From NCBI GenBank assembly GCA_018398805.1, contig JAGFBZ010000701.1:186001-250000 (forward strand): a stretch of 64,000 nt of DNA. Direction: 5' to 3'. This stretch comes from Hirundichthys speculiger (taxonomy: Eukaryota; Chordata; Actinopteri; Beloniformes; Exocoetidae). The notes under the pieces were generated by a model that ran no database searches, was not told the origin of the DNA, and saw only the letters and a program-made list of their open reading frames with translations. Shown here in pieces: positions 17,345-59,589 of the stretch; positions within the stretch are counted from its first letter, which is position 1, and each line of letters starts with the position of its first letter. The position numbers and the translations under genes were made by a program.

Positions 17345-19083
17345 CCCCACCTATCTGCACTGTATGTTCCTGTGTTCCCACATCTGAGCAGATAACATGG
17401 TGAGCTGGAAATTGTCATGGCATTAAGAAATAGTGGCCTATGGGTTAAAAATACCAGTCTTGAGTTGTCATACACTAATACGTTCCATTAAATTACTATT
17501 ATCAAATATCAATAAAGGATTAAAGCAGCTGAAAATTCCAGAACAACTACACCCGCTGCCACATCAGAACCTCAAAGAGGACACAGTACAACGGAGGGAG
17601 TAGCACCTTCAGCCAAGGTTAGAGTGACTCACCACCTGCATACTAATGGCTGTAAAGCAGACTCCCTGTCTGCAGGTGATGAATGAGTGTCATGTCAACA
17701 GGGAAGGAGGAGGTGAAGAGGAGGAGGAAGATGAAATTTGGCTCTGGAGATGTTGCCCACAGGTAGCTCAGGCACAGACCTCAGGAAGCTCTAACCCCTT
17801 CACACTGCCATCTGTGGCTCAGGAGTGTGTGTGTGTGTGTTTGTGCTCGTGTCTATTAGCGCGTGCATTTGCGTGTGTTGGAATGTGTTTGTGAAACAAG
17901 CGCAGATAGTTTTAGTAGTTTTAAATGGCCACTCATTTGAGTGCATACTTTAACCTGCATGTTTGACTGCTCTTGTTTCACATACCGGTACACTTTTGTC
18001 ATTTTTGTGTTTTTTGTGATTTTTTTTTGTCGATCTCATGTACACACATCCACGCCCGGCAGCTCTGTCACCTCCCGCACCTCCGCCGAGCAGAACAGAT
18101 GGGATAACAGGAGAGAGGGTTCCCACGTCCGCTCTTCCACTTCGTCCAAACTCACGCCATCTCTGCCTGGCCTGCCTCAACAGAGCCAAAACCACCATGA
18201 CTCAGCCAAAACACACACATGTACACACACACACCTCTGCTTCGACCCATACATGCTTTTAAAAAAATTATACGCCACATCTGGTACTTTGGTACTCAGA
18301 TGGTCTGGAGTGACACCAGTAAGGTGAGGTAATGGCGCATCTCTGCAGATTGGAGGGACTCTTTTCATAATAAGTGGCTTGTGATTAAAGTCCAAAGGGT
18401 CATTCATTGCCGCATAATGACGAGAAAAAAAAAAAAAACAACAAAACAAAACAGGAGCAATGCTTTTAAAGTTATGTGCAATTTATTTTATTTTTTCTTC
18501 TGATAAACAGCACCGAATGTTATCACAAGCTGCAATAGCCGAGATTCATTGGACTCGTTTGCTTTGAAGCCATCCTCATTAAGTTTCTGGACGGAGTGAG
18601 TGTGGACTGGGACCGCAGAAGGGCCCGCCGCCAGAGCGGTTATCACCATCCAGAAACCACATTTACAGAAAATGTCAACGTTTCTCAGCAAAAACCCTGG
18701 CAAAATGCACAAACGCTCGCATTATCAGGCACAAGCCCTCATTTGTTTGTTGATATGGCACACTGTCAATGAGAAAATAAGAGCACATTTGGAGACTTGA
18801 ACAAGTTTTGGATTCAGGTCACCTGACCTACATCAGCGACTCCAGTCTAAGACCATTGTTTTGGCTCCAAGCTTCTTTGTTTTTTCTCTTCTCAGTCACT
18901 TTTAGGCTTGGATTAGGTGTCAAAAGCACCTGCTTGGGATTAGGAAAAGAAGGATTGTAGTCAATTATAGCCTTTAAAACCCCTAAAAGAAACCAAATTC
19001 TGAGATTGTCACGGTTCTGCTCCTCCCTCTGCCTGCTGCAGCTCAGGTAATCAGCACAAGTCAGTTCACCTGTTCTACTGAGC
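17345..19083. other. Intergenic, short TG repeats, no gene
   Basis: A short TG run lies at about 17,825-17,842 and CA-rich pieces near 18,210-18,235. Open frames on both strands between 17,941 and 18,449 overlap each other and lack recognisable domains. Confidence 0.4.
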
Positions 19084-19150
19084 CAATCCAACTTTATTGA
19101 TAAAGCACTTTAAAAAACACCAACCACAGACCAAAGTGCTGAACATTTAA

Positions 19151-19167
19151 AGGAGCTGTATGTAAGA
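19151..19167 (+). repeat. Left terminal inverted repeat of the TTAA transposon
   Basis: AGGAGCTGTATGTAAGA, preceded by TTAA at 19147-19150. It pairs with 23562-23578. Confidence 0.85.
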
Positions 19168-19387
19168 AGATTAATAAAACGAATCATAAAATGACCCTGA
19201 TATGTCAAAAGACATTTAAAAATCATGTTCATTTCAAATACTTATGTCACTGACAACAGCACTCAAGCCAGGATATTCCCTTTTAAAAAGAGGACTTGAG
19301 GGCTGCAAGTCTTGTTTTTGTTGTCATTTCGTGTTTTGGCCTGAAGCGCCACCCTCCACCTATCTCCCAATCAGGAAGTCAGTAGTG

Positions 19388-19457
19388 TTTCGGCATCCGG
19401 GTTGCCAGCTCCGCTCTCATTATCGCAGCAGCCGCTACGAACGTGTTGGATGTGAAA
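19388..19457 (+). promoter_or_regulatory. 5' region of the plus-strand gene, similar to the inverted 5' region of the ballast gene
   Basis: Upstream of the plus-strand ATG, the order is GCGCCACCCTCC (near 19,346), GGTTGCCAGCTCCGCT (19,400) and CGCAGCAGCCGC. On the minus strand upstream of the ballast gene, the order is GCGGCGTGTACCCTCC, GGTTGCCAGGTCGGCT (23,482 down) and GCAGCAGG. The likeness suggests the two promoters are inverted copies. No TATA box is evident in either. Confidence 0.5.
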
Positions 19458-21813
19458 ATGGCTAGTTTACCAAAACAAAAAAGACCTCGTTATGAATCCG
19501 AGTTACGTCGTGACAAGGTCCGCAATAAAACAAGGATTTGTATAGGAGGTGCTTTTGATAGATGGAGGCGGCTGAAAGCGGAGAAGAATTTGAAGACAGA
19601 CGCCAACGTTGCTGATTTTCTCCTGGACAGGTAAGATTCATAGCTAAATGTTTGGCTAACGCTAATTTACTTGGGCAAGGTAACAGAACAAGGTAACAAA
19701 GAAATTTCAGTATTCACTACGTCGGAGTATTCACTAGTTAAACAAAGTTATGCATGTTCGTGCACAGTAACGCTAGCGCATAACGTTATGGAGCAGGTGG
19801 GTCATCGAATTGAAAAGGTAAATAATTATTATTTAGAATATAAAAACGGTGACTGATATTGCTAACAATAGCAATGTAACGTTAGGCTAATAAGCGGAGC
19901 CCGTCAGTCATCGTGCCGTGGAAAACATTAGCATGGCCATGGTAATGTGAAACCTAATTGAGACAGTAGCCTAACGTTACCACGGTAAAACGATTTCTTA
20001 TTCATTCTTTGCATATATTGTGTATTACACGTGCTGCAAATTGACCCATCTGACCATTGCTAACGTTAGTTATTAGTGTCAGTCTTTTCTGATGGAACTG
20101 ATAAAAAACGTTAGCCATTGATGACGAATGCAGACGTAATTTTCCCCGCATTATCTTTGGTTAGACACTAGTCTGTGGTAAATGTTGGTTGTTGCATATT
20201 ATTGTAAATGTGTAGAGTGTTCCATAATTATGACAAAAACGCTTGTCTCTTCAGCTATTATGGCCCAAGCACTTCAACCCCAAGTAAAAGACAGTGGAAG
20301 AAGCACCACCTGACTGCACCATCACTCTCCAGTATTGGACATGCATCGTCTGAAACGCTTTCAAATCGGTCAGTGATCAGTGCCACGTTGTTTTCATTTT
20401 CATTTCATATTTGGAAGCATTTTTTGTCTAAAAAACACTAAACTATTTATAGAGAAGACCTGCCACCTACAGAGGAAGCATTGGAAGATGAGGAGTGCAC
20501 TGTGGATGCCTCAGAAGTTCTAGAGGAGAGGTATATAAATACTCTCAAGCTTTCGAATTTGTCTAAATATAAGAAATAATTTTGGTGGTGCTGCAAAACA
20601 GCTGATTCCTGCCAAGAGTTTCTTGTAAGTTGTTATAGTTGTCAATAATGTATGAAACTAACATGCAAGATGTTACCTTGATGTTGGATATTAGCTTATT
20701 GATTACCATAAGTACCTATCCAGAGGTGTCATTGTGGTCAATCAGATGACCCACTTACATTACTAACAATCATCATCATTAGCAGTGAATAATGTTCAAT
20801 TGCCATGCTTTTTGTGTCTGTCCATTATATTTCTGTATTATTTTGTAGGAGCTGTGGCTTGGGCTCCTACCCATGTCACAAATGAACACAGGTGGGTACA
20901 GGGAGGCTGCCAGCATGCAGACTTGGAATCAGGGGGAACTCAAGAGTGGCTTGAGCGAGGCTCCCACGGCACACACGAGGCCCTGAAGAGTATTGTGTGA
21001 AACAAGCGATGGCTCAACAAAGTTCACAAATACCTGAACTTCAGGTAATTTAATGAGTGTGTACACATACTGTACCTAGAAAGTGATTTTCAAAAAAAAT
21101 CAAAAAAATGTCTCTATGTCCCACCCCCCCACAGGTCCACTGCTGATCTGGAGTCCTTCCAAAACCATATTTTAATGTATGCCAGCAAGCACTCAGCATT
21201 TAGCCCTCCTGTCTTTAAGGCCAGGATGCTCCTCGCAGCGATGGATTACAAACTACCACAAGGACCCGCCCAGAGTTTTGCAAGTCTGATGGAAGCAAGC
21301 AGTAAGTGACATGCTCATTTCTACATGTTGGATGTTGGGAACCATTTTACCTGATTACACCATTGAAACTCTATATAAAACACTGTACTGTAAAACAATC
21401 TATTTTCTCTGCTTTTATTTTAGGTACAGGAGGCTGTACAAGAAAAATGCCCAAAGGTATATGCTGTACACTAAGAAGACATCGAAGACCTATGGCTACA
21501 TCCCAGAACTGCAAACAAAGATTCTGCAAAAGAGGCTAGCTGGTAAGGGAACGCCCAGGCGGAGGAGTCTTCGGCCCGATGACCCCAGAAAGTACGGCCC
21601 TCTTCCCCCTGTGCCGGCACCAACCAAGGAGGAAACTCCTGCGCACCCAAGTCAGGAGAGGTCTTGGTAGGTAGAATACCAGTTTATTTTTCTTTTGCAT
21701 CTGCGGCTACATACCACACACCAAGTTAGATGTAATGCATATTACATTTAATTTTAAAATAATCTAATTTCTGTTTTTATTTTGCTCTCCTCAGTGTCAG
21801 CATTCCAGAGTGA
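19458..21813 (+). pseudogene. Broken multi-exon transposase-like gene of the TTAA element
   Basis: Exons read by splice signals: 19458-19630, 20255-20368, 20453-20530, 20849-21044, 21135-21301, 21430-21667 or so, and 21795-21813. The first encodes MASLPKQKRPRYES and a compact motif IGGAFDRWRRLKAEKNLK / VADFLLD, seen at the N-terminus of a large family of fish mobile-element proteins. The fourth and fifth encode HADLES, WLERGSHG, NKRWLNKVHKYLNFR, then STADLESFQNHILMYASK, where the E of ADLE is a candidate third catalytic acid. The sixth gives KTYGYIPELQTKILQKR. The gene is dead or non-autonomous: the middle with the expected two catalytic aspartates is missing between exons three and four, exon phases do not match there or at exon six, and an in-frame TGA lies at 20998-21000. 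Family assignment is by memory of related proteins, not by search. Confidence 0.65.
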
Positions 21814-22025
21814 AGACCAGTGAAACCCGTTTCCAGAGCCTCTCAGCCCTTGTCATTTCCATTTTCTGCCACAAGCTGCTTTTAAAACCATTTCATAAAG
21901 TTTCCACAGTACAGAGCAGTTAATTGTTCAATAGTTATTTATACTATTTATACTGTTTATCCCTCGTTTTATTTATTTATTTATTTTTTACTGTTCCTCT
22001 ATATCGTAAATAGGAAAGCATTGTT

Positions 22026-22052
22026 ATTATAAATAAACTTTTTTTATTGAAC
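22026..22052. promoter_or_regulatory. Overlapping convergent poly(A) signals
   Basis: AATAAA on the plus strand (in ATAAATAAAC) and AATAAA on the minus strand (plus-strand TTTATT before GAAC) lie within about 20 bases of each other, between the stop of the plus gene (21,813) and that of the ballast gene (22,157). Each is placed where its gene would be expected to end. Confidence 0.55.
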
Positions 22053-22156
22053 AAGGAAGAAGGCTCTTTACAAACTTGGAACAAAACAAACAATTTGTAA
22101 AAAACAAAGTATATACAACAAGTAACTTCAAGTAAACTGGAGTCGGTAAAGTTTGT

Positions 22157-23461
22157 TCAAATTGTGGGTAGAAAGCCAGTGTACTGGCCTTGAGGGTCAG
22201 GGTATTTGTCCCTTATTCTCCAAATGCAGCAGCTGGGGATAACACGACGGTTACCCTGGCCCAGTGATTCAAGCTGCCAAAAGGTGTACTGCCGATAAGC
22301 AGCATATCTAAACTGCCTATTATCATCACCTGGCTCTGTAACTTCTGCTACCACCAACACATCATTCCTGTAGTCTCTGTGTAGACGCAAATAGCCATCT
22401 TCCAAGCAGTAAAGCTCGAAATGAGGCAATTTGCTTATGCAGTGCTCAGGCGCCTGGCCACAGCATTTCCTTTCTGCATCTGTGGCCATCTCCCTGCAGT
22501 TCCCACAGGTACAACATGGAAGAGCAGCTGCAGGTGGGAGAGTGGTGCTATCCAATGGAGGCAGGGCATCAAAAACCAATCCAGGGTTCCGGGAGAAGAT
22601 CCGGGTTGCTAGTGCTCGTAGCCCCATTTCACTCATGTTTTGAATGAGTTCCTAAGTAAACAAACCACAAAATAGCATTTGGCATTTACATTTGATTAAA
22701 ACTACATAAGATGCTGACATAGATACAGATGATGATATTACAAGTCATAATTTTACTGCCCAGCTCTCATCAGCCTCAAGAGAGGGTACCTCAAAAGTGA
22801 GGTCTAAATCAGGCTGAAACAAGTGAGAGCAGTACAAGCAAAGATCATCTGGTACAAGTGCTAGACTACCTTGACATAAACGTGTGTTCTAAGCATATTC
22901 TATCTTTTAGCCTGTGCAATAATTTAGTGTTTGGAAGTATCAGGCGTAATTCCACGGCAACATCCTCAATACCAAAATCGCATAATTTGGTCCACATACA
23001 TAGAACTTTTGGACATGTTTTTGATTTAAATTCTACACGTCATGTAATTTTTCATATAGCCTGATGTATTTTAGGAAAATTACCCTCGACTTTACATGTG
23101 GTATTGTCGACGTTACAAAAAGTTACCATCGATATGAGCCTATAGTGTTTCCAACCAAACAATAAATTACTGCATAGCCCAAAATTAGAATTTGCATGGA
23201 TTTCTCAAATGCGTTCATAAAAAGCTTTACATCGCAACACTAGCCTAATAAAGACATTTTTAACAGGGTAACTAACTGAAAACTTATGCTCCGACTGAAA
23301 TGTGGTAACATTTACGATTCTATTTGGCTAATCGCCATTAGTAAATTTTGCAGTACATTATTACTTCGCAAAAGATGTTTCATAAAGCAATAAATATAAT
23401 TAACAGAAAATAAACTTACTGTGTAGGACTCGTCGCATGACAGCCTACGTTCCTGCTGCAT
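22157..23461 (-). CDS. P2X7-type ballast (C-terminal intracellular) domain protein, 178 aa
   Basis: Two exons: 23461-23420 (14 codons, ending before GTAAGT) and 22651-22157 (after TTTACTTAG), joined in phase 0 to give 178 residues without a stop. The first exon encodes MQQERRLSCDESYT. The second has a helix-like start (ELIQNMSEMGLRALATRI) and then the cysteine-rich fold: CCTCGNC at 60-66, CC at 77-78, HCI at 84-86, RQFRYAAYRQYTFWQ at 127-140, and IPSCCIWRIRDKYP at 152-165 ending GQYTGF. In P2X7 receptors the same order (CxCGNC, CC, C-I, R-CAYR-Y-TW, LPSCCRWRIR-FP, GQYSGF) forms the ballast, which binds a dinuclear zinc site and guanine nucleotide. No transmembrane helix or P2X ectodomain is present, so this is a free-standing domain. 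The earlier in-frame ATG at 22636 would give a shorter, 159-aa form. It lies inside a TTAA transposon opposite a dead transposase. Function is unknown. Confidence 0.8.
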
Positions 23462-23473
23462 TCTGCAGCCGAC

Positions 23474-23540
23474 CTGGCAACCTCTGGTCGGGGAGGAGGG
23501 GGAGGGTACACGCCGCTCAACAGTATTTTGAAAGTGACTG
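23474..23540 (-). promoter_or_regulatory. 5' region of the ballast gene
   Basis: The minus strand upstream of ATG 23461 carries GGTTGCCAGGTCGGCTGCAG and a CCTCCCC-rich stretch, resembling the plus-strand promoter at the other end of the element. The start codon lies about 120 bases from the right end. Confidence 0.45.
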
Positions 23541-23561
23541 CAGTACCAGTTTTGGCCATAA

Positions 23562-23578
23562 TCTTACAAACGGCTCCT
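23562..23578 (-). repeat. Right terminal inverted repeat of the TTAA transposon
   Basis: On the minus strand AGGAGCCGTTTGTAAGA, followed outside by TTAA at 23579-23582. It differs from the left copy at two positions. Confidence 0.85.
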
Positions 23579-23789
23579 TTAAATAAAATATAATTAGAGT
23601 AAAATAAGTAAAAATAAAGATTAAAGAGGGAAGCTAAAAACATAAATTCAAAACAGTAAAACTTAAATAAAAAAATTAATAAAATAACTTTAAATCAGCA
23701 TCTCACACTGGATTGAAAGCCAAATGGAAGAGGTGGGTCTCAACAATTGATTTAAAAATGAGAAAGGAAGAAGACTGCCTGATATGTAA

Positions 23790-25075
23790 AGACAATGAAC
23801 TTCACAATTTGGGAGCTCCAACAGCAAACACCCCGTCCTTTCTGAGCCTCCACCGTGTCCTCGGTACGTCCAGGAGCAGCTGGTCAGCTGATCAGGAAGG
23901 AGAGTGCAAATGCAGCCACTCAGAGAGGCAAGGCAGGGCAAGACCTGTTAAAGATTAAAAAAGCAAATAAAATAATTTTAAAATGAACTCTAAAATGGAC
24001 AGACAGCCAGTGCAGTGAGGATAAAACAGAAGTAACCCTCTTCAGAGTTTCAGTTAAAAGCCGTGCAGCAGCACTTTTGCACCAGCTGAAGACAAGACAG
24101 GGTGGACTGCCTAACACCAACAAGGGTTACAATAATCCAGCCAACTTGGAATAAAAGCATGAATCACTGTTTTAAAGTGAACCTTCAAAAGATATTTTCA
24201 ACTTGCACTGCACTGTTCTGACTGTCCAGTCTAAAATCCTTATCCAATCTAAAACCCTGGTTCGTAACAGTAGTTTTTCTGTATCCACAGGAAAAAAATC
24301 CACTGGTGACACCAGGACCAAAAAACAATCAATTCTGTTTTTTTTTTTTTTTTTGTATTAAAATCTTAGTGTATAGTGCCATCCAGGCTTTCATTTCCTC
24401 AAGAAACTCAGTTAAAGCTTGTCTGGACCAGGCATTCTTCTGTTTTAGGGGCACATAGACCTGAGTGTCATCTGCATAATAATGCTTTCTAAAAATGAAG
24501 CCGAGGGGCAGCAAATACAAAGAAAACAGCAGAGGCCCCAGTATTGAGCCCTGTGGGATGCCACATGACAAATAAGCAGAAGATATAAATCAATTTAGAC
24601 CAATACAAAAATATATCTGAGTCAGGTATGATCTGAATCATTTCAAGGCTATGCCACGAATGCCTACACAATGCTCTAAACAAGATAATAACATATTGTG
24701 ATCCCGTTAAGTCTAAAAGAACCAGGATGACATAGTTCCCTGAATGTGTAGCCAGGAGGATGTCATTTAAAAACCCTTTCATTTGATTGTAGACAATCTT
24801 TTCTAAAATCAAAAAAGAAAAGTTAGAAAAAAAGACTAACGTTAGATAACAGACTGGCCAGGTTTTTTGATCAGTGGTTGCACTGTTGCATGCTTAAAAA
24901 TTTTAGGAACCACACCTGAAGACAGGCTGCTGTAAACAAGAGAAAGAATCAATGGCCCCAAAACAGAAATTATCTCTTTACAGAATCAAGGTGGGACAGG
25001 ATCAGTGGGGGAACCAGAGGGTTTAAGATGACCAACAATCTCATGTAAAGCACTCATGTTCCAGCATTCTTGTCT
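23790..25075 (-). pseudogene. L2-type LINE reverse transcriptase remnant
   Basis: On the minus strand: LHEIVGHLKPSGSPTDPVPP and VLGPLILSLVYSSLSSGVVP (about 25,050-24,900), then ILEKIVYNQMKGFLND (about 24,800), then the RT core with [20 protein letters not shown] and [13 protein letters not shown] (24,565-24,440). Farther on come AAARLLTE, SLHWLSVHFRVHFKI (24,070-23,990) and a degraded SADQLLL..VPRT region near 23,880. PQG and F/YADD are the RT motifs, and this order is that of L2-clade ORF2. Stops and frameshifts separate the blocks. Confidence 0.8.
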
Positions 25076-33372: not shown

Positions 33373-34384
33373 TTGAAGGGGCGGAGCTTCAGGGGGGGCT
33401 GTGGGTTCTTATAAGATTTAGCAGAGGGAGATCCTTGCTCTTCTTTTAAATTTTATGGCCCTTTGTCTCAGAATCCAAATGGTAAACAGCAGGTCCAGGC
33501 ACATGTGGTTGTGTTTGTCCAGGAAATGATATGTCCCTCAAATGTTTATCGATGCTTTCAGACTGTTGGGGGTCGAGAAGGATGTTCCAGTCATTCAAGT
33601 CATAAAAGCTGAGGAACTCATGAAAGAAGACTGCATTCCTACATGTCATAAAGTTTAGTTTTAACAATTAAACAGTCCTCAGATAATTTTAACTAAAAAA
33701 GCTGGACACATATCCTTGTGGAGATGAACCTGACATTGTTGGCAGCGAGTCAAGCCCACCAGAACTGGTACCACAGTCAGGGAGCCAGATTCACTGGTAC
33801 AATTTCTCACAATCACTGACACTGAAAACAATATGTGAGTTAGTTGTAAACTGTTGATGTGGTTGTTATCGGAGTAGCCCGACCATCTAACGTTATTATT
33901 AGAGACCAGGTAGCCTAATGTTTTTGTTGTTCTCATGGTTTGTTAGACTTCATATCGGTTTTGTCGGGTTACTCTAGTAAAGAGGCTCGTACAACGACGT
34001 GCTCGGAGTTGTTATTTATTAACAGCAATGGAAACACATCAGGCGAAATCGGCAATTGGTACCGAGCAGAATGAATGAATGAATGAATGCCGGTAGCTAC
34101 TACAACAATAACCGTGGTGCGTCTCCAGGGTGACGTCACAAACTGCATACCGCCGAATACATTCTAAACAAAATATTATGCCATAATACTACAGGTTTGA
34201 TTGATTTCAAAATGACATGGTCGCTCTTCGTGGTGTTGAAACTCTTACTATCAAATGCTTTGAGCTATGTGTCAAAAATGTAGTAATGCTTGTAAGCCCC
34301 GCTGTTGCAGGCATGTGTATGTTGTCAAACGATGTAATCACCAGCTTTATTGGGTTTAAAGGGCCCGGTCATGTGCCCCGGCCC
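33373..34384. other. Intergenic; possible cysteine-rich exon on minus; GAAT repeat
   Basis: A GAAT repeat of five units lies at 34,069-34,089. On the minus strand a good acceptor (TGTTTTCAG) at about 33,821 opens a frame of some 50 codons, to 33,669, ending with TRCQQCQVHLHKDMCPAF. The cysteine spacing loosely recalls the C-terminal cysteine-rich finger of piggyBac transposases, but that is weak. Confidence 0.3.
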
Positions 34385-34846
34385 CCGGCCCGGCAGTGAC
34401 ATGTTCCGCTGCTGCCAGGTTGGATCCCCTTTTGCTTTCAGATCTGCCTTAATTCCTGGCGGCATAGATTCAACAAGGTTTTGGAAACATTCTTCAGAGA
34501 CTTTGGTCCATATCGACGCAGGTGTTGGCCGTTCCACCACGTCTCTACATTGGATTGAGACATTGGTGACTGCGGGGGCCGCTGGAGTACAGCGAACTCG
34601 CTTGAAATGGATCTGCCCGTCCTCTGTGTGCTCATCAGAAGATGGGTGGGTCATGAAGGAATGGACACGGTCAGCTGCAACACTCAGGTAGGCTGTGGAG
34701 TTTAGGTGGTGCTGAGTTTGTACTAAGGGGCCAAAAGTGGGCCAAGAAAATATCCCCCACATCATGACACCACCACCACCAGCCTGAACGGTTGATACGA
34801 GGCAGGATGGATCCACTGAGCATCCTACTGTGGTCCTGTTAACCAC
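34385..34846 (-). pseudogene. Tc1-family transposase remnant
   Basis: The minus strand reads STVQAGGGGVMMWGIFSWPT, GPLVQTQHHLNSTAYLSV, VHSFMTHPSSD, then a shortened middle and SIWTKVSEECFQNLVESMPP with IKADLKAKG. These are the central and C-terminal blocks of the Tc1 family that ends in GGCCACTTTATTAGGTAC. The catalytic middle between the two blocks is deleted: the DNAPCHKA-type aspartate motif and the SPDLNPIE motif are not found. The C-terminal end runs into GC-rich non-element sequence at about 34,385. Confidence 0.85.
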
Positions 34847-34859
34847 ATGTATGTGCCTG

Positions 34860-36933
34860 AGTGCAATTGAGTTGTATTATATAAGTATACTTACAGCATG
34901 GCAACATACGATAAAAGTATTTTACTTTCCATTTCAACACTTCGTCATCTTAGTTAAAAACAAACAAAATGGCTTTTACTTTTGAATGTAGCGAAGTACA
35001 TTTGGAAGGGGACGCTCTCAAGAATCAAACAATAAGTGTCCGGACAAATGTAAGGCCGTGTGGTTAGTTCAGCACTTTGTGAAAGTTATGGTTGCAGATT
35101 TGTGGCCGTTAACAAACTTTGGTTCTCCTTCATGAAAGTCAGATATAAAGCAGCCCTATTCCTCTGCCCCAGCTTCCACACTCCATGCATTCATCCCTCC
35201 TGCATAAAGGACTTCCTGCTTGCTGCGCCGGTGCCGAATGGTGACTTTGGGCCTACGCTGAGAGGTGTCAAAGAGTTTACTCTCTGCATAAGAGAGCCCA
35301 GGAGAACTGGGCTGACGAAAATAAATACAAACTCTAACCCAACATTTCCCTTTTTAGCTGTTCCAGATTTTCAACGTGCTCTTTCCCGCTCTGAAGTTAT
35401 GTCTAACAATCAACTTTTCTTCACTTTCACTCCGTCCCATCAGTCGCTGCTGGAGCTGACTCATGTGTGTCGAGCGTCGGGTTTCCGTTGCTGCGTTCCC
35501 GGTTTCAACAAACTGTTGCTGCTTTCAGAGGAACATCTGTTTCATTTGAGCCTTTGCACACTGAGGTTTTCCCTTTTAAATGAGTTTTTTTTATTTGAAT
35601 TTCTTTCACGCGTTTTCCTGAGATCTTAATGAAACGTCTGTGAAACCCGTGGGGTTGACACGCGACAGTACTGCACGTACACTCACCATCGTGCACTCAC
35701 AGCAGCCGCTCAAAGGACGTGGAGTCAGCCTCATCTGTGGGCTGGGCCTCTCTTGGATCCAGTTCTCTGTAACCGGTTGTCTTTGTTGTGGAGTGTTGCC
35801 CACCTGGTTACTCAGTGTTGAGTGCAAATGGGGTTATTATAGTGGGAGACTTTAAGATGAATATAGATGTTGAAAACGATGGCCTGAATGTTGCATTTAG
35901 TTCTGTCAGATTCTGCTGCACCCTTCATCGTGCTCTAACATAAGGAGAAATTGAACAACAAATTGAAAAGGAACAACTACACAGTATCTGAAAGGACTTT
36001 TCGTTTTCATAGGTGTTTATCAGCGAGTGCTTTTACTGAATTGTGAAATATGTCATATTCTTATATATAGAATTATTCTTATAGATTTTGTGTATAATTA
36101 GTCTTTGTTTGCTGATCTCTCTTTTCTCCAACTGGTTGAGGCAGATGGTTGACCCCTCCCATGAGCTGTGTTCTTCACTGTGGCCTTGTTCTTTCTCAGG
36201 ATGGGGAGTTGTACCAAAGTAAAGGTTTGATGCAATCTTATGGGATCCTTAACTAAATAACGGCTACCCGAGTACCGCCGAAAATGACAAATATGGGGTC
36301 AGCACTCACAATCATCCGGGGCTTTGCAGATATGCGCTGGCAAAGTAGACGGGATCGCCGCTGTCGCAGTCTGGTGACTTCGGCAGTGTTTGTGTGTTGT
36401 TGTATATGTAAATGAATGTGTGGTGGACTGTGATGTAATAAAAGGACAGACGTGCAAACGTAAGACAAACGGATAAATGCCAGCAAAGTACAAAGACGGT
36501 ACAGAAAACTGGACAACAGAAAAGGAAAGGAAGTTCTGAGACCGTGTGTGTGCGTGCATGCGCACACGAAATGTGTTGAAGTCTGAGTTTAGGTCGGGGG
36601 TTCGTAATGGTTAAATATGAATAGATATTATTACATTTAAATATACATATACCTGTGCCTGCCATGTACACAAAGATACATCTACCTTGTAACAGACGTA
36701 AATATGAATATATTGAAATAAACATATATGAACAAAACACACACACAAAAAAAGGAAGAAATAAATCCACACTGGCATCTGGTTGTGATGGTTATGTTGG
36801 CAGTGACACAGATTAGTCACAGTTCCATTGTCAACTCAGTCCTGTGGTGATTATGACTGGATGATTAATACTGTCCAGCTCCAAGCGAAGACAAGCAAGC
36901 ACATAAACATCTGTTTTATGTATATATACTTTA
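34860..36933. other. Intergenic tract; longest open frame not recognised
   Basis: Contains the longest plus frame in the window (189 codons, 35060-35629) and a 152-codon minus frame (36312-36770). Neither has a known domain, low-complexity structure is present, and nothing marks them as exons. A few TA- and TG-rich patches occur near 36,545 and 36,920. Confidence 0.4.
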
Positions 36934-36945
36934 ATATATTATGTT

Positions 36946-37314
36946 CGCAGATGGCGGATACAGGCTGCAGAAATTAGTTTTCTCTGTAGGGTGGCTGGAC
37001 TCTCCCTTAGAGATAAGGTGAGAAGTTCGGTCATCCAGGAGAGACTCAGAGTAGAGCTGCTGCTCCTTCACATCGAGAGGAGCCGGTTGAGGTGGTTCGG
37101 GCATCTGGTTAGGATGTCCTCCGGACGTCTACCTGGAGAGGTGTTTTGGACATGTCCAGCTAGGAGAAGACCACGGGGCAGACCCAGGACACGCTGGAGA
37201 GATTATATCTCTCAGCTGGCCTGGGAACACCTCAGGGTTCTCCCAGAAGAACTGGTGGAAGCGGCCGGGGGGAGGGAGGTCTGGGCCTCTCAGCTGAAGC
37301 TGCTGCCCCCATGA
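36946..37314 (+). pseudogene. Rex3 ORF C-terminal fragment, still open
   Basis: The frame is open from the 5' truncation point: IQAAEISFLCRVAGLSLRDK, then RVELLLLHIERSRLRWFGHL, ARRRPRGRPRTRWRDYISQL and a final WASQLKLLPP with stop at 37,312-37,314. R-L-RWFGHL-RM and P-R-RPR-RW-DY are the conserved C-terminal motifs of this RTE-clade ORF after the reverse transcriptase. The lack of stops and the perfect duplication suggest a fairly recent insertion. Confidence 0.85.
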
Positions 37315-38135: not shown

Positions 38136-41100
38136 GTATTTGCATATCTAAGCTTAAGGTTACGTTCATATAATGTGTGTTAAAAGCAGATCATCTCCTG
38201 GCTGCTGTAATGCACGTCTATTTAACACTTGACGAGTGGAAGTTTACCTGCGAAATTTGCTGTTGACACCTGTGGAGTTAACGTGGCCATTCCAACCAGT
38301 TTGATTCCTGATAAAGAGGTCTCTCCAGTTACAGAGGCCATGTGGTTGACCACAGCAGAGGAACCTCAGCCGTCAACCACAGACGGCCACCGGTTGCAGA
38401 GATGTTTAGGAAATGTAGAGAAACTGTGTGCAGTGGGTTTTTTTTTCTTCTTTTCCTTGCATCCAATATCATAGCAAGTCATTTTGTGACACCTATTGAA
38501 TGCTTTGTCGAACACAACACGTGGCGTCAACGGTTTCTACATTAGTCACGCCGTTCTACGCTGCAAAAAACACGAGCTACAACATAAGAAATAATCACTT
38601 CATTCTGGGTAAAAATGTGTCAATCTGAGTGATGCTGCAAGATGTTTTTAATTTCTGTTTTGATCTAGTAGGCATTCAAGGGTTTGAAAAAATAAGAATC
38701 CACATTTTTAGATCAAATACATAAAAACAGACTTGCTCCAGCACAGTAGCCAGTGAGACACTGAAAATTAGCAAATAATTCTTAACTGTAGGTTGCTGAA
38801 AAAGTGGAGACCCAGAATTAAGAAAATCAACCCATAAATCAAAGTGGAAATGTAGCACTAAACTAGATATGTATTTATAGCATCACGAGTTATGAAGACA
38901 AGCAACTAAATTACAAAAGCAAGCCTTTTTTCTGAGAAAAATAAACATGATTCAGTACGTTTTTAAAATGATGGCAGGCAGCCATCACTGTTTCTGCTGC
39001 GGGTGACGTCGCAGCGATGCTTCTGTGTCTGGCAGTGGTGGTTTTAAACTGCTACCAGTTGCTCTAGACTGGTTGGTACGCAGCCAACAAGTGGATTTAA
39101 CAAAACCATAGATGCCTACATGTGCAGGAGTAGAGACGTCATATGATCAACCCGAAACAAAGATGTTTTCAACTGTTTTTACTCGATGACGGGCACGTAC
39201 GGATTCTGGTCACGATGGTGCAACGTGGATGGAGATCATGAGAGCATGAAAGCAGAGCCTTTGTTCGGTAGCACTTGTTTGAGCATCCAGGATGATACCA
39301 AACGATCATCCTTATTTTTTTCCTGTGATCGATGAGTCTTTCCATCTAGAACAGCATTAAAGACAACCGGCAACCAACCATGTCAGCGACGCCACGCTTG
39401 GACTTATTCGTAAACAGCTGCACCCTTGTGGCGAAAATGTGAAATACAACATAATTTTCCTGCCAAACTTCTTAAATTTTGGGTTTAACTGTACAAACGT
39501 CAAGAGCAACTAAAATACATTCGGTGCTTTACCTCTTTGGCGTTAGCAGAGTCGGTTTATGCGGTTGCTTGAAACACGACTTTCAACGCTGGAACTCTTG
39601 AGTTATTGCCTGTTTTCACAGCAAATGACTGAATTTAAGATTTCCCGGATAATTAAGACATAAGAGACAGTATTTGTGATATATTTAAGAGCATACCGTG
39701 GACTTAGTAAGAAAATCATATTAAAAATGAGACAGTTCCCGTCACACCTGTATTAACAGAGCAAAATAAATACATTTCTGTCTAAATCTAAGTCTGAAAA
39801 AAGTTCCCTCCTCCCCCTCCCTTTTTCTTTTTTTAAGCACACACCATTTCCAGGTAGACCTCCAGGATGAGGATGGCGGTCCCTGGATGGTGATTTATGC
39901 TAATTAAAGAGCCGCGGGAGCACTCCGCCAAATCGTGATTGATTGCGCAATTCAGAACATACGCACATTTTTTTTTTTTTTTTTTTTTTTTTACAATCGA
40001 ATCCGAGTTTTACGAGGCATTCGGGAGTCCAGAGCAGGTGATTTATGTGCCGAACCGTTCACGGATTTCTGAAGATTTCTTGAATGGGGCTCTGGGAGTG
40101 TTGCGTGATGTCACGTCTGGCGGAGCAGAAAATGGAGATGAAGAGTCATTTAAGTCCCGCCTGGTTCTGTGATGTCACAGAACTGCAGTGTCACATCTTC
40201 AGGTTGTAACTTTTTAATTCAGTCATCACTTCAAAAACCCTCCAACCATAGAATTTATTTTTCTAATTATAGCTTCTCTTTAAGCATTCAAGACCGTCTT
40301 TATCTTATCGGTGTTAACACCAGGAGCAAATAGAAACAACAAAGGGAAAATGTCTTTATTCATCTATTCAAAACCCAATCTATCTATTCAAACGCCACAT
40401 ACTATTATTATTTGAGCTCCTGCTTTTAAGAGTGGGCTGAACTGGCTGATTGATATACAAAAGAGCACAACTGAACTAAAGCTGAACCTCGGGAACTCTG
40501 CAATCTATCAAACAATCCTCCCGGGTCTATGTTTAGACATGAGAAAAACCCAGAGGCAGCGGTTTGTTTTGTTCAACGGGGAATACAGTTACCGTGATGA
40601 AAGTGCGTCACACATAGCAGAGCACCCACAGTGGGAGAAGATCACAGCTGACTATTTAGCTTCTGGAGACAAATGGCACGCTGACAACACAGGCGGCGTT
40701 CGGCGACGCCAACGGAAAGCACGACGGCGATGTTTTGTATTAACGCCGCAGTTCGGCTGGCGTGTGGAGCGATCCTTTGGCAAACAAAGTCATTTGATCA
40801 AGTTCATTCCTTTGCAGCCACCTCAAAGTTCTCTGTGGTCCAAATGTCGAAGTGAAAAATACTCCTGCGGTACGTTTCCTAAACAGACACATAGAAAAAC
40901 ATAATTGGCCATGTAAAGCTGCTCGCTGAGTAAATACTGGTGTTTGTTCTCTGCTTTGCTTCACTTCGGTTTACTGGTTCAACGCGCTCCAACCTCGGCT
41001 GCAGCCGCTCTTACTGTGATGGAGGGCGTTTCACCCAAATGGGAAGAATTTCCGAATGTTGTGGTTTTTTGTGTCTGTGGTACAAGTGAAGGGTGGGACA

Positions 41101-53749: not shown

Positions 53750-55253
53750 TTTCAATGAGGGTGTATGTGTGGATCAGTTTATTTGTTTTATGTCATGATC
53801 ATTATATTTCCGTGGAACTGAAACCGTCTGTAACCAAACTTTCAAGCGTTCTCAGCTGGCAGAGTTGGTCGATTCATGTAAATGAGTTCAAATTAAAACA
53901 TGTAATAATACCTAACAGACAGAAACCCCCCCCCCCCCCACCCCAAATGAACCACTTCCCCTGCACTTTTGAAAAGCTTGCTACGCCCCTGACTGTGTAA
54001 CAAACAGGGGTCCTCCACAGGACTTTGATGTGCACGTCTGCCTGCTCCGTTAATATGTAATCTCTCAGTATAGCTGCTGCAAATCCTATTTAAGGTAATG
54101 TGCAACACTTTAAGGCTCCCTAAGTCCTCCTCCTGACTCTCATCCTGAATTTGCATTTTGCTCTTTTTTTCATTATCACATCTCTGCGTGGCTTTCATTT
54201 AGTTGCAGCAGCAATCGCCCTCCTCAAAAATTAAAAAAATATGAGCTAATTACAATACATTTAACTGAGCGTGCATTTTCTTTTGTCGGGATTGTCTCAG
54301 CATCAGCAGGGCTTCGTTTTTGTGACGCATTTGTACGTACCTGTACTTCCCCCCCCTATTTACAAGAGGAATTTGAATTCCCTCACTCCGTTCTCCGGTC
54401 CTTTAATTGACATAATTACAGGATTACGGTGTAAAGCTGCTACTCTGTCACTTCTGCGCCGCAGCCCGTGAGGTGACAGCGCCGACTCTGTCGAGGCAGG
54501 ATCCACTCAGCCTCTCGGTTTGACACCGACACCCAGGAGGACAACAAAGATAAGGACGGCTAGAGGGAAAACCCTCGTTCTGACAAGAGCAAATTAACCT
54601 GCCGTGCCCGACAGAGAGCCGCTGCCGTCTCCTCCTTTCGCCCTCCCCCCTCCTCCCTCGCTTGTTTCCGCTGCAAATGTCTTGCTGCAGCAGTTTTTGT
54701 CTGTCTGTATTGATTGATTGCAACTTAAGATCTGCTGTTCTGTCGGCGTGAGCTGTCTTTGATGTTGTTTTGTTTCTCCTAAAAGATGACCACTCCCTCT
54801 TCCACAGACTCCCTGCCTCTGCTCTCAGGCCATTATTTTCTTTTCCTCTCTGCCCCCCTCTCATTACAAGCCAAACGTTGCGTTAGCCTCGGGCCTCTCA
54901 CCTGTTGTGGGTCGTTGCTAATTATGTCCTGGAGCTAAACTGACTGAAATGGCGTCTTTATCAAGCCTTTGTTGCCCGTAATACCTCTGCAGCACCCGAA
55001 TGAATGGATTCAATCTTTGCATATCCCATTTCATCTACTGCTGACAAACTGTGTCAGTTGGTTTGTCCGTCTTCTCTTCAGGGGGAAGCCCAGTCGGGAG
55101 GCTAGCAGTTAACTGGAGAAATCAAACCATTTAGGAATTACCGCTATTTTAGGCAGAGTACCTCGGTTTTGGGGTATTATTAGGAAGTATTAGGACAGCT
55201 TACTGAAAACAACTTCACTGGACAGCAGAGAAAAGATCTGGAGATCCTGAGTT
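53750..55253. other. Low-repeat tract, no gene recognised
   Basis: A C-rich run lies at about 53,927-53,944. From about 54,250 to 54,950 the sequence is balanced in composition and free of repeats, with TTTAATTGACATAATTACAG near 54,400; it could be conserved non-coding DNA. The 138-codon minus frame at 54,448-54,864 is arginine-rich but unrecognised. Confidence 0.4.
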
Positions 55254-58847: not shown

Positions 58848-59589
58848 AGCATTAATGTTGGATGACAACTTTCAAAATAAAATCTTACCATTTCTCAGTT
58901 TCTGCAACCTTTATTTTGGAGCTGCTACATATTTTGGACACATGGAAATACATATTTGATAATGCTTTTCTAGTACAACTGGCCTGTTACTACAGCAGTG
59001 TCTGACATACCTACAGTGCCACTAGCTGACAGCAATAAGGATCCGTGTTTATTAATTGTAAACAGAGACATGCCTGATGTACATTTTCCTCTTACAGAAG
59101 ACTTTTCAACCATTTTCTTAAACAAGCATGACTGTTTCATGGATTCTGAGGACAAGGATGTGAGTTCATTGGCCTCCATGTAGAGATTCACCAGTTGACT
59201 GGAAGTGGCCAATTTCTGTCCAACTGGTTTTGGCCAGTTAGTAGAGGTATTATATACACAGCCTTGGAAAGTTTTATTTATTTGTTTACTCTTCAATCTT
59301 GGTGATGCGGTACTGGAAAGCACGTCACTGAAGAAAGTTAGCAATTTATACAACCTGTTAGGTCTGAAAAAAGACGGACTCACCAGGAACAACAACCAAC
59401 ATGTTTGTGACAACAGTCTTAATCTCAAACGTAAAACAACATTACCCTGCTGAAGTTACGAAGCTAACAAAGGCCATGTTCACATAGTAGTCAATGTATA
59501 AATGCACTGGAGATTCCCTGATGATCAATATCATCTGATGAACATATACAGCAACTTGATTTTTTATCTCTACTTTTAATTTTGATATT
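58848..59589. other. Unrecognised tract next to a hAT end
   Basis: A 152-codon minus frame (58970-59428) and overlapping plus frames occur here. It may be the interior of the hAT element whose end is at 59,711, but I recognise no transposase motif. Confidence 0.35.

Follow-up and report, generated by a model that had tools for sequence, protein, structure and literature searches.

At this locus a gene resembling the intracellular ballast domain of the P2X7 receptor stands alone within a DNA transposon of a fish. The window, the whole stretch of 64,000 nucleotides analysed here (Hirundichthys speculiger, assembly GCA_018398805.1, contig JAGFBZ010000701.1, positions 186,001 to 250,000), contains a TTAA-flanked DNA transposon of 4428 bp at 19151-23578, with exon pieces of a transposase on its plus strand and a two-exon gene, hereafter KolX, on its minus strand. 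This element is very probably an internally deleted, non-autonomous Kolobok of the Kol0 type, mobilised in trans and carrying KolX as an accessory gene whose frame is open owing to recent amplification, and a relative of KolX would have been captured to form the P2X7 tail. Kojima and Bao (2022, PMC9587614) reported that the KolX proteins of the Kol0 group resemble residues 476-595 of human P2X7, the region with the ballast fold, and proposed that P2X7 arose when a P2X4-like gene was fused with the KolX gene of a Kolobok from that group. Earlier, Rump et al. (2020, PMC7016195) had suggested that an older ballast domain was captured; they described free-standing nanor-like proteins, and in their main text the string 'transpos' has 0 occurrences. 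The window element is thus a further member of a known family, and the link between KolX and P2X7 has been in print since 2022; the original prediction, which regarded ballast genes in transposons as a plausible source of the P2X7 tail, reasoned soundly along a line that Kojima and Bao had already published.

The 17-bp terminal inverted repeats of the element are identical at 15/17 bases, and the inverted ends with TTAA outside them that had been noticed in the window recur at many other loci. A DNA search of the same genome (1.04 Gb, 3002 contigs) gave 59 matches to the element (35 of 851 candidates scored), from which 34 loci (L009-L042) were fetched; 29 of them have both ends and, together with the window, make 30 full-length copies. 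All 30 have TTAA on both sides, their flanks differ from one another, and every end present among the 34 fetched loci adjoins TTAA. A pattern of TTAA plus the outermost 18 bases of the left end occurs 230 times in the genome, compared to 0 times for the reversed control pattern. The copies form two groups, that of the window (18 copies, mean divergence 0.96%) and a second one (12 copies, 2.4%), with a divergence of 3.9% between them. Of 13 further loci, 11 have TTAA next to the right end, and at L049 no right end was found. The joined flanks of the window copy match one interspersed repeat, in which the insertion point is crossed uninterrupted in 35 of the 39 rows besides its own locus (best 40 of 112 candidates scored); since the repeat is continuous through the junction in these other rows, they display the empty site. 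Copies with the same ends and both genes, the search for which had been proposed, are therefore present in the same genome.

The product of KolX exon 2 matched the Pfam family P2RX7_C (PF20478) with an E-value of 4.1e-26 (92.5 bits, cut-off 23.5), residues 42-160 of its 164 lying on profile positions 77-191 of 192. The PDB sequences matched at E <= 0.001 were P2X7 chains only (4/4 distinct sequences, best 9e-17, 9e3q_A). An AlphaFold2 model of the same product (mean predicted local distance difference test score, pLDDT, 67.5) gave 14 Foldseek matches at E <= 0.001, all 14 of them P2X7 (E 2.1e-06; template modelling score, TM, 0.56-0.62 over these matches when normalised by the length of the model). 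The second protein that distinguishes Kol0, one like P2X7 476-595, was thus found by profile, sequence and fold. P2RX7_C was the only domain detected in the exon-2 product by Pfam, and the ATP-gated channel domain that marks a P2X7 receptor was not among its matches. The stand-alone ballast gene in a transposon, as originally claimed, was borne out by profile, fold and copies; the claimed likeness over the whole 178 amino acids held for the ballast part, whereas the N-terminal ~55 residues are not covered by the profile match.

KolX shares with the P2X7 ballast its sequence, cysteine pattern and predicted fold, and keeps the equivalents of rat R546 and R578. It differs in having no equivalents of R574 and K583, and the channel part was not found. 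The zebrafish protein nanor likewise lacks the equivalents of R574 and K583 and, like KolX, is a small stand-alone ballast protein whose N-terminal region is short (Rump et al., PMC7016195); nanor is a domesticated KolX according to Kojima and Bao (PMC9587614), whereas the window gene sits in a repeated transposon. Among the KolX relatives listed (P0002-P0046), all named organisms are teleosts, many rows being unnamed, and several are fish gene models called 'P2X purinoceptor 7-like'. The nearest named relative in the KolX tree is from Sphaeramia orbicularis (support 97/84). When 28 KolX-like proteins were placed in one midpoint-rooted tree with two P2X7 tails, the P2X7 branch lay at the root and was 3.4 changes per column long, so that the tree does not inform on nesting. 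A padded-alignment search for full-length P2X7 relatives listed 120 of 280 rows, and none of these 120 shows a P2X channel domain. Among viral contigs, one stretch fits a pattern and no protein related to the exon-2 product is encoded.

The two-exon gene is present as predicted, with GT/AG splice sites (23461-23420 joined to 22651-22157, 178 amino acids), and the 178-residue frame exists; its start, however, is secondary. In 19 of the 30 full-length copies the usual start, ATGGCAAGCGA(C/T)GAG, encodes MASDESYT and is followed by exon 2, and the relative P0006 begins alike (MASDDDTELIEKMSE). Ten copies, the window and nine others, lack 5 bp at this start, and one copy has GTG for ATG. The 5-bp deletion brings an upstream ATG into frame, and the 178-residue frame is therefore a by-product; the usual KolX of the window's family would be 172 amino acids long. 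Exon 2 is unbroken in 20 copies, has lost the stop alone in one and is broken in nine, and the usual start occurs together with an unbroken exon 2 in 14/30. Because the start deletion is common to 10/30 copies, copies with a broken start must have kept spreading. In a protein search, KolX matched the genome at least 150 times (best 150 of 379 candidates scored).

The closest relative of the transposase is a protein of 738 amino acids from Carassius auratus (P0098; 2.6e-142), and another relative, from Alosa alosa (P0100), carries the source name 'Transposase'. When P0098 was aligned to the window, exons were recovered for residues 2-124 and 515-729, and nothing between residues 124 and 515 matched in the window at E <= 1. 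The deletion removes residues ~125-514, including the D1, D2 and DxxH motifs. In 11 aligned relatives D389, D456, D480-x-x-H483 (DMWH) and E600 are invariant; an exact D1, D2 or DxxH motif was found in 0/30 full-length copies, the window included, and the E motif is kept in 27/30. The core was lost in more than one way. In the second group, 10 of the 12 copies (L028-L037) have a different gap pattern around the junction, and in the four of these that were inspected the junction differs from that of the window, whereas L027 shares the window's junction. In a third deletion class, seen in 31 rows, only ~43 residues from the beginning of the 317-amino-acid core query remain, and a KolX match lies nearby in 28 of these rows.

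A complete core of the window's family was found at two loci only, on contigs C53 and C344 (99/99 candidates scored), with a damaged piece on C102; other long core rows, with 36-67% identity, were taken as belonging to more distant families. Both of these loci (L043 and L044) carry the four motifs, the family's ends and KolX; their ends are 7829 and 6827 bp apart, and one of them has TTAA on both sides. The DDE residues with DxxH that characterise Kolobok are thus found in the family, in the 11 relatives and at both core-bearing loci, but not in the core-deleted window copy. The termini of the element, AG...CT at 19151 and 23578, follow the Kolobok rule 5'-RR...YY-3'. Published features of Kol0 (Kolobok-1_XT type) alike in this family are the TTAA target, the RR...YY ends, the DDE transposase with C/DxxH and the ballast-like KolX (PMC9587614); unlike Kol0, to which the family was compared by description only, all 30 full-length copies here have lost the catalytic core. 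The Xenopus T2-MITE / XKol Kolobok elements are also alike in TTAA, AGGRR ends and the occurrence of non-autonomous derivatives beside full-length copies (PMC6004289), and differ in that neither P2X nor KolX occurs in the main text describing them.

Considering these results, we propose the following scenario. The full element would have AGGAG... ends between TTAA target sites, with the transposase encoded on one strand and, on the opposite one, KolX, a protein with the predicted ballast fold whose cysteines form a zinc-type pattern. The window copy and its sisters are without the catalytic core and must therefore have moved in trans; the transposase may have been supplied by core-bearing copies with the same ends. 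Judging from its pairing with the transposase, KolX is most likely an accessory protein of transposition, and its cysteine pattern suggests a structural or nucleic-acid-binding role. In Alosa alosa (P0006/P0100) and Perca fluviatilis (P0005/P0107) the hits to the two genes are on contigs of equal length, so that the genes perhaps lie on the same chromosome there. The tail of P2X7 would, as published, derive from a captured KolX relative.

Several observations weigh against this scenario. The right side of L044 is GTAA rather than TTAA, and the right end at L057 is followed by TTCA. KolX is interrupted by stops at both core-bearing loci and the transposase at one of them, and for this reason no fully intact helper was seen; of the relatives with an intact transposase that it had been proposed to look for, two loci with a full core were found and none fully intact together with KolX. 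Structural support for a DDE fold is weak: the P0098 model matched nothing in the PDB at E <= 0.001, and the mean pLDDT of the transposase structure is 59.3. None of the 7 transposase relatives scanned has a gathering-level Pfam match; below the cut-off, P0120 matched PF20700 (Mutator) and P0104 matched DUF2920. Finally, the assignment to Kol0 was made from the published description of that group and not by comparison with Repbase entries.

Selection might keep KolX on core-deleted copies, either because copies making KolX move better (a cis effect) or because the protein serves the host, so that KolX-keeping copies outspread others. This would explain why KolX is present in at least three core-deletion classes, and why frame-altering indels private to one copy are scarcer in KolX exon 2, with 4 in 495 bp, than in five transposase exons, with 27 in 893 bp (p ~0.008), or in noncoding sequence, with 76 in 2720 bp (p ~0.008); the unbroken exon 2 in two-thirds of the copies, with one more missing the stop alone, fits as well. 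With the neutral expectation taken from the noncoding parts of the copies, however, exon 2 has 52 nonsynonymous and 20 synonymous changes (expected 58.0 and 19.5) and 5 new stops (expected 4.2), with no shortage of the latter. The ratio of nonsynonymous to synonymous changes (N/S) is 0.87 of that expected in exon 2 and 0.67 to 1.66 of it across five transposase exons, and among multi-copy changes N/S is 1.0, 2.0 and 1.25 in three transposase exons, lower than the 2.4 of KolX. Transposase exon 1 is equally poor in private indels (1 in 173 bp), the usual start is broken by the 5-bp deletion in a third of the copies, and 37 of the 100 first-listed left ends have no KolX within 9 kb among the matches scored; at least 5 of these 37 adjoin a transposase remnant. 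Single-copy indels most likely arose after insertion, beyond the reach of selection among elements, and therefore do not prove selection; sequence context or chance is a simpler cause of their shortage in KolX. KolX substitutions look neutral across the 30 copies, the open frame of the window copy is best explained by recent spread, and we consider it unlikely that KolX is partly cis-acting or serves the host in this way. A domesticated host gene of the nanor kind, single-copy and under purifying selection, was also considered and rejected on the number of genome matches and the near-neutral substitutions.

It is very improbable that an unrelated, piggyBac-like transposon picked up a P2X7- or nanor-like gene from its host. 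The piggyBac target site is also TTAA, and a few piggyBac families have a KolX-like protein (Kojima and Bao, PMC9587614); the ends of the present element, however, begin with AG in accordance with the RR rule of Kolobok, the transposase family of the remnant has DxxH, KolX and this transposase occur together at the two core-bearing loci, and none of the 7 relatives scanned matched a piggyBac transposase in Pfam. A chance arrangement of ends and gene within ordinary repeats is scarcely credible, as the two end matches in the window (<=3 mismatches) prove nothing by themselves, at least two being found in 9/100 shuffles as well, and the reality of the ends follows instead from the copies sharing them elsewhere in the genome, which refute such an arrangement.

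The Kolobok of the window thus provides an independent, many-copied case of a ballast gene in a DNA transposon and supports the published origin of the P2X7 tail, though it raises no new question on its own. Gene models that carry the name 'P2X purinoceptor 7-like' in fish may be KolX genes of transposons, and our literature search found no paper joining that name with transposition. The features of the element and its insertion site are listed in Table 1.

Table 1. Positions in the window of the transposon's features and of the repeat that it interrupts
Feature	Position	Strand	Evidence or remark
Interspersed repeat hit by the insertion, left piece	19081..19150	.	joined-flank search
Left target-site copy TTAA	19147..19150	.	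TTAA at each end present in loci L009-L042
Left terminal inverted repeat AGGAGCTGTATGTAAGA	19151..19167	+	230 exact genomic matches of TTAA + first 18 bases
Transposase exon 1 remnant	19458..19630	+	82% identical to P0098 residues 2-56
Transposase exon 2 remnant	20255..20368	+	P0098 alignment
Transposase exon 3 remnant	20453..20530	+	P0098 alignment
Stretch with internal deletion junction (near 20579-20580)	20531..20580	+	post-exon-3 sequence fused to middle of later exon
Transposase exon remnant FWWCCKTADSCQEFL	20580..20624	+	P0098 alignment
Transposase exon remnant, frame lesions and internal stop	20849..21044	+	P0098 alignment
Transposase exon remnant, glutamate motif DLESFQN from 21145, frame changes in window copy	21135..21301	+	P0098 alignment, motif scan
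Transposase last-exon remnant YRRLYKKNAQRY...	21424..21671	+	P0098 alignment
KolX exon 2, 164 amino acids + stop, ballast cysteine motifs CxCxxC, CC, C, CC	22157..22651	-	P2RX7_C, P2X7 chains by sequence and fold
KolX intron (GTAAGT ... TTACTTAG)	22652..23419	-	splice sites
KolX exon 1 as originally predicted (MQQERRLSCDESYT)	23420..23461	-	usual MASDESYT start broken by 5-bp deletion
Right terminal inverted repeat AGGAGCCGTTTGTAAGA	23562..23578	-	inverted match to left end
Right target-site copy TTAA	23579..23582	.	sequence
Same interspersed repeat, right piece	23583..23740	.	joined-flank search

In the remainder of the window, the frames at 34325-34876, 36907-37314, 40416-40904, 54448-54882 and 58970-59455 have no Pfam match at E <= 0.01. 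Near the insertion, a reverse-transcriptase match (RVT_1, 8e-9) lies at 24329-24589 on the minus strand, and this fragment probably belongs to a repeat like a long interspersed nuclear element.

Elsewhere in the genome, nine contigs (C1768, C1383, C54, C234, C144, C2217, C1442, C1614 and C843) have Kolobok-like cores, some without stops, whose longer rows share 57-67% identity with P0098, and other Kolobok-like families seem to co-occur in this genome. A KolX stop (ISK*PHF) and a DYGND variant are common to the core-deleted L017 and the core-bearing L044, which suggests exchange or descent. Two fish gene models fuse the ballast domain to another domain, P0169 of Alosa sapidissima to PF18701 and P0200 of Epinephelus lanceolatus to PF00075, which we take to be RNase H; these are perhaps read-through of neighbouring transposons, or possibly real fusions.

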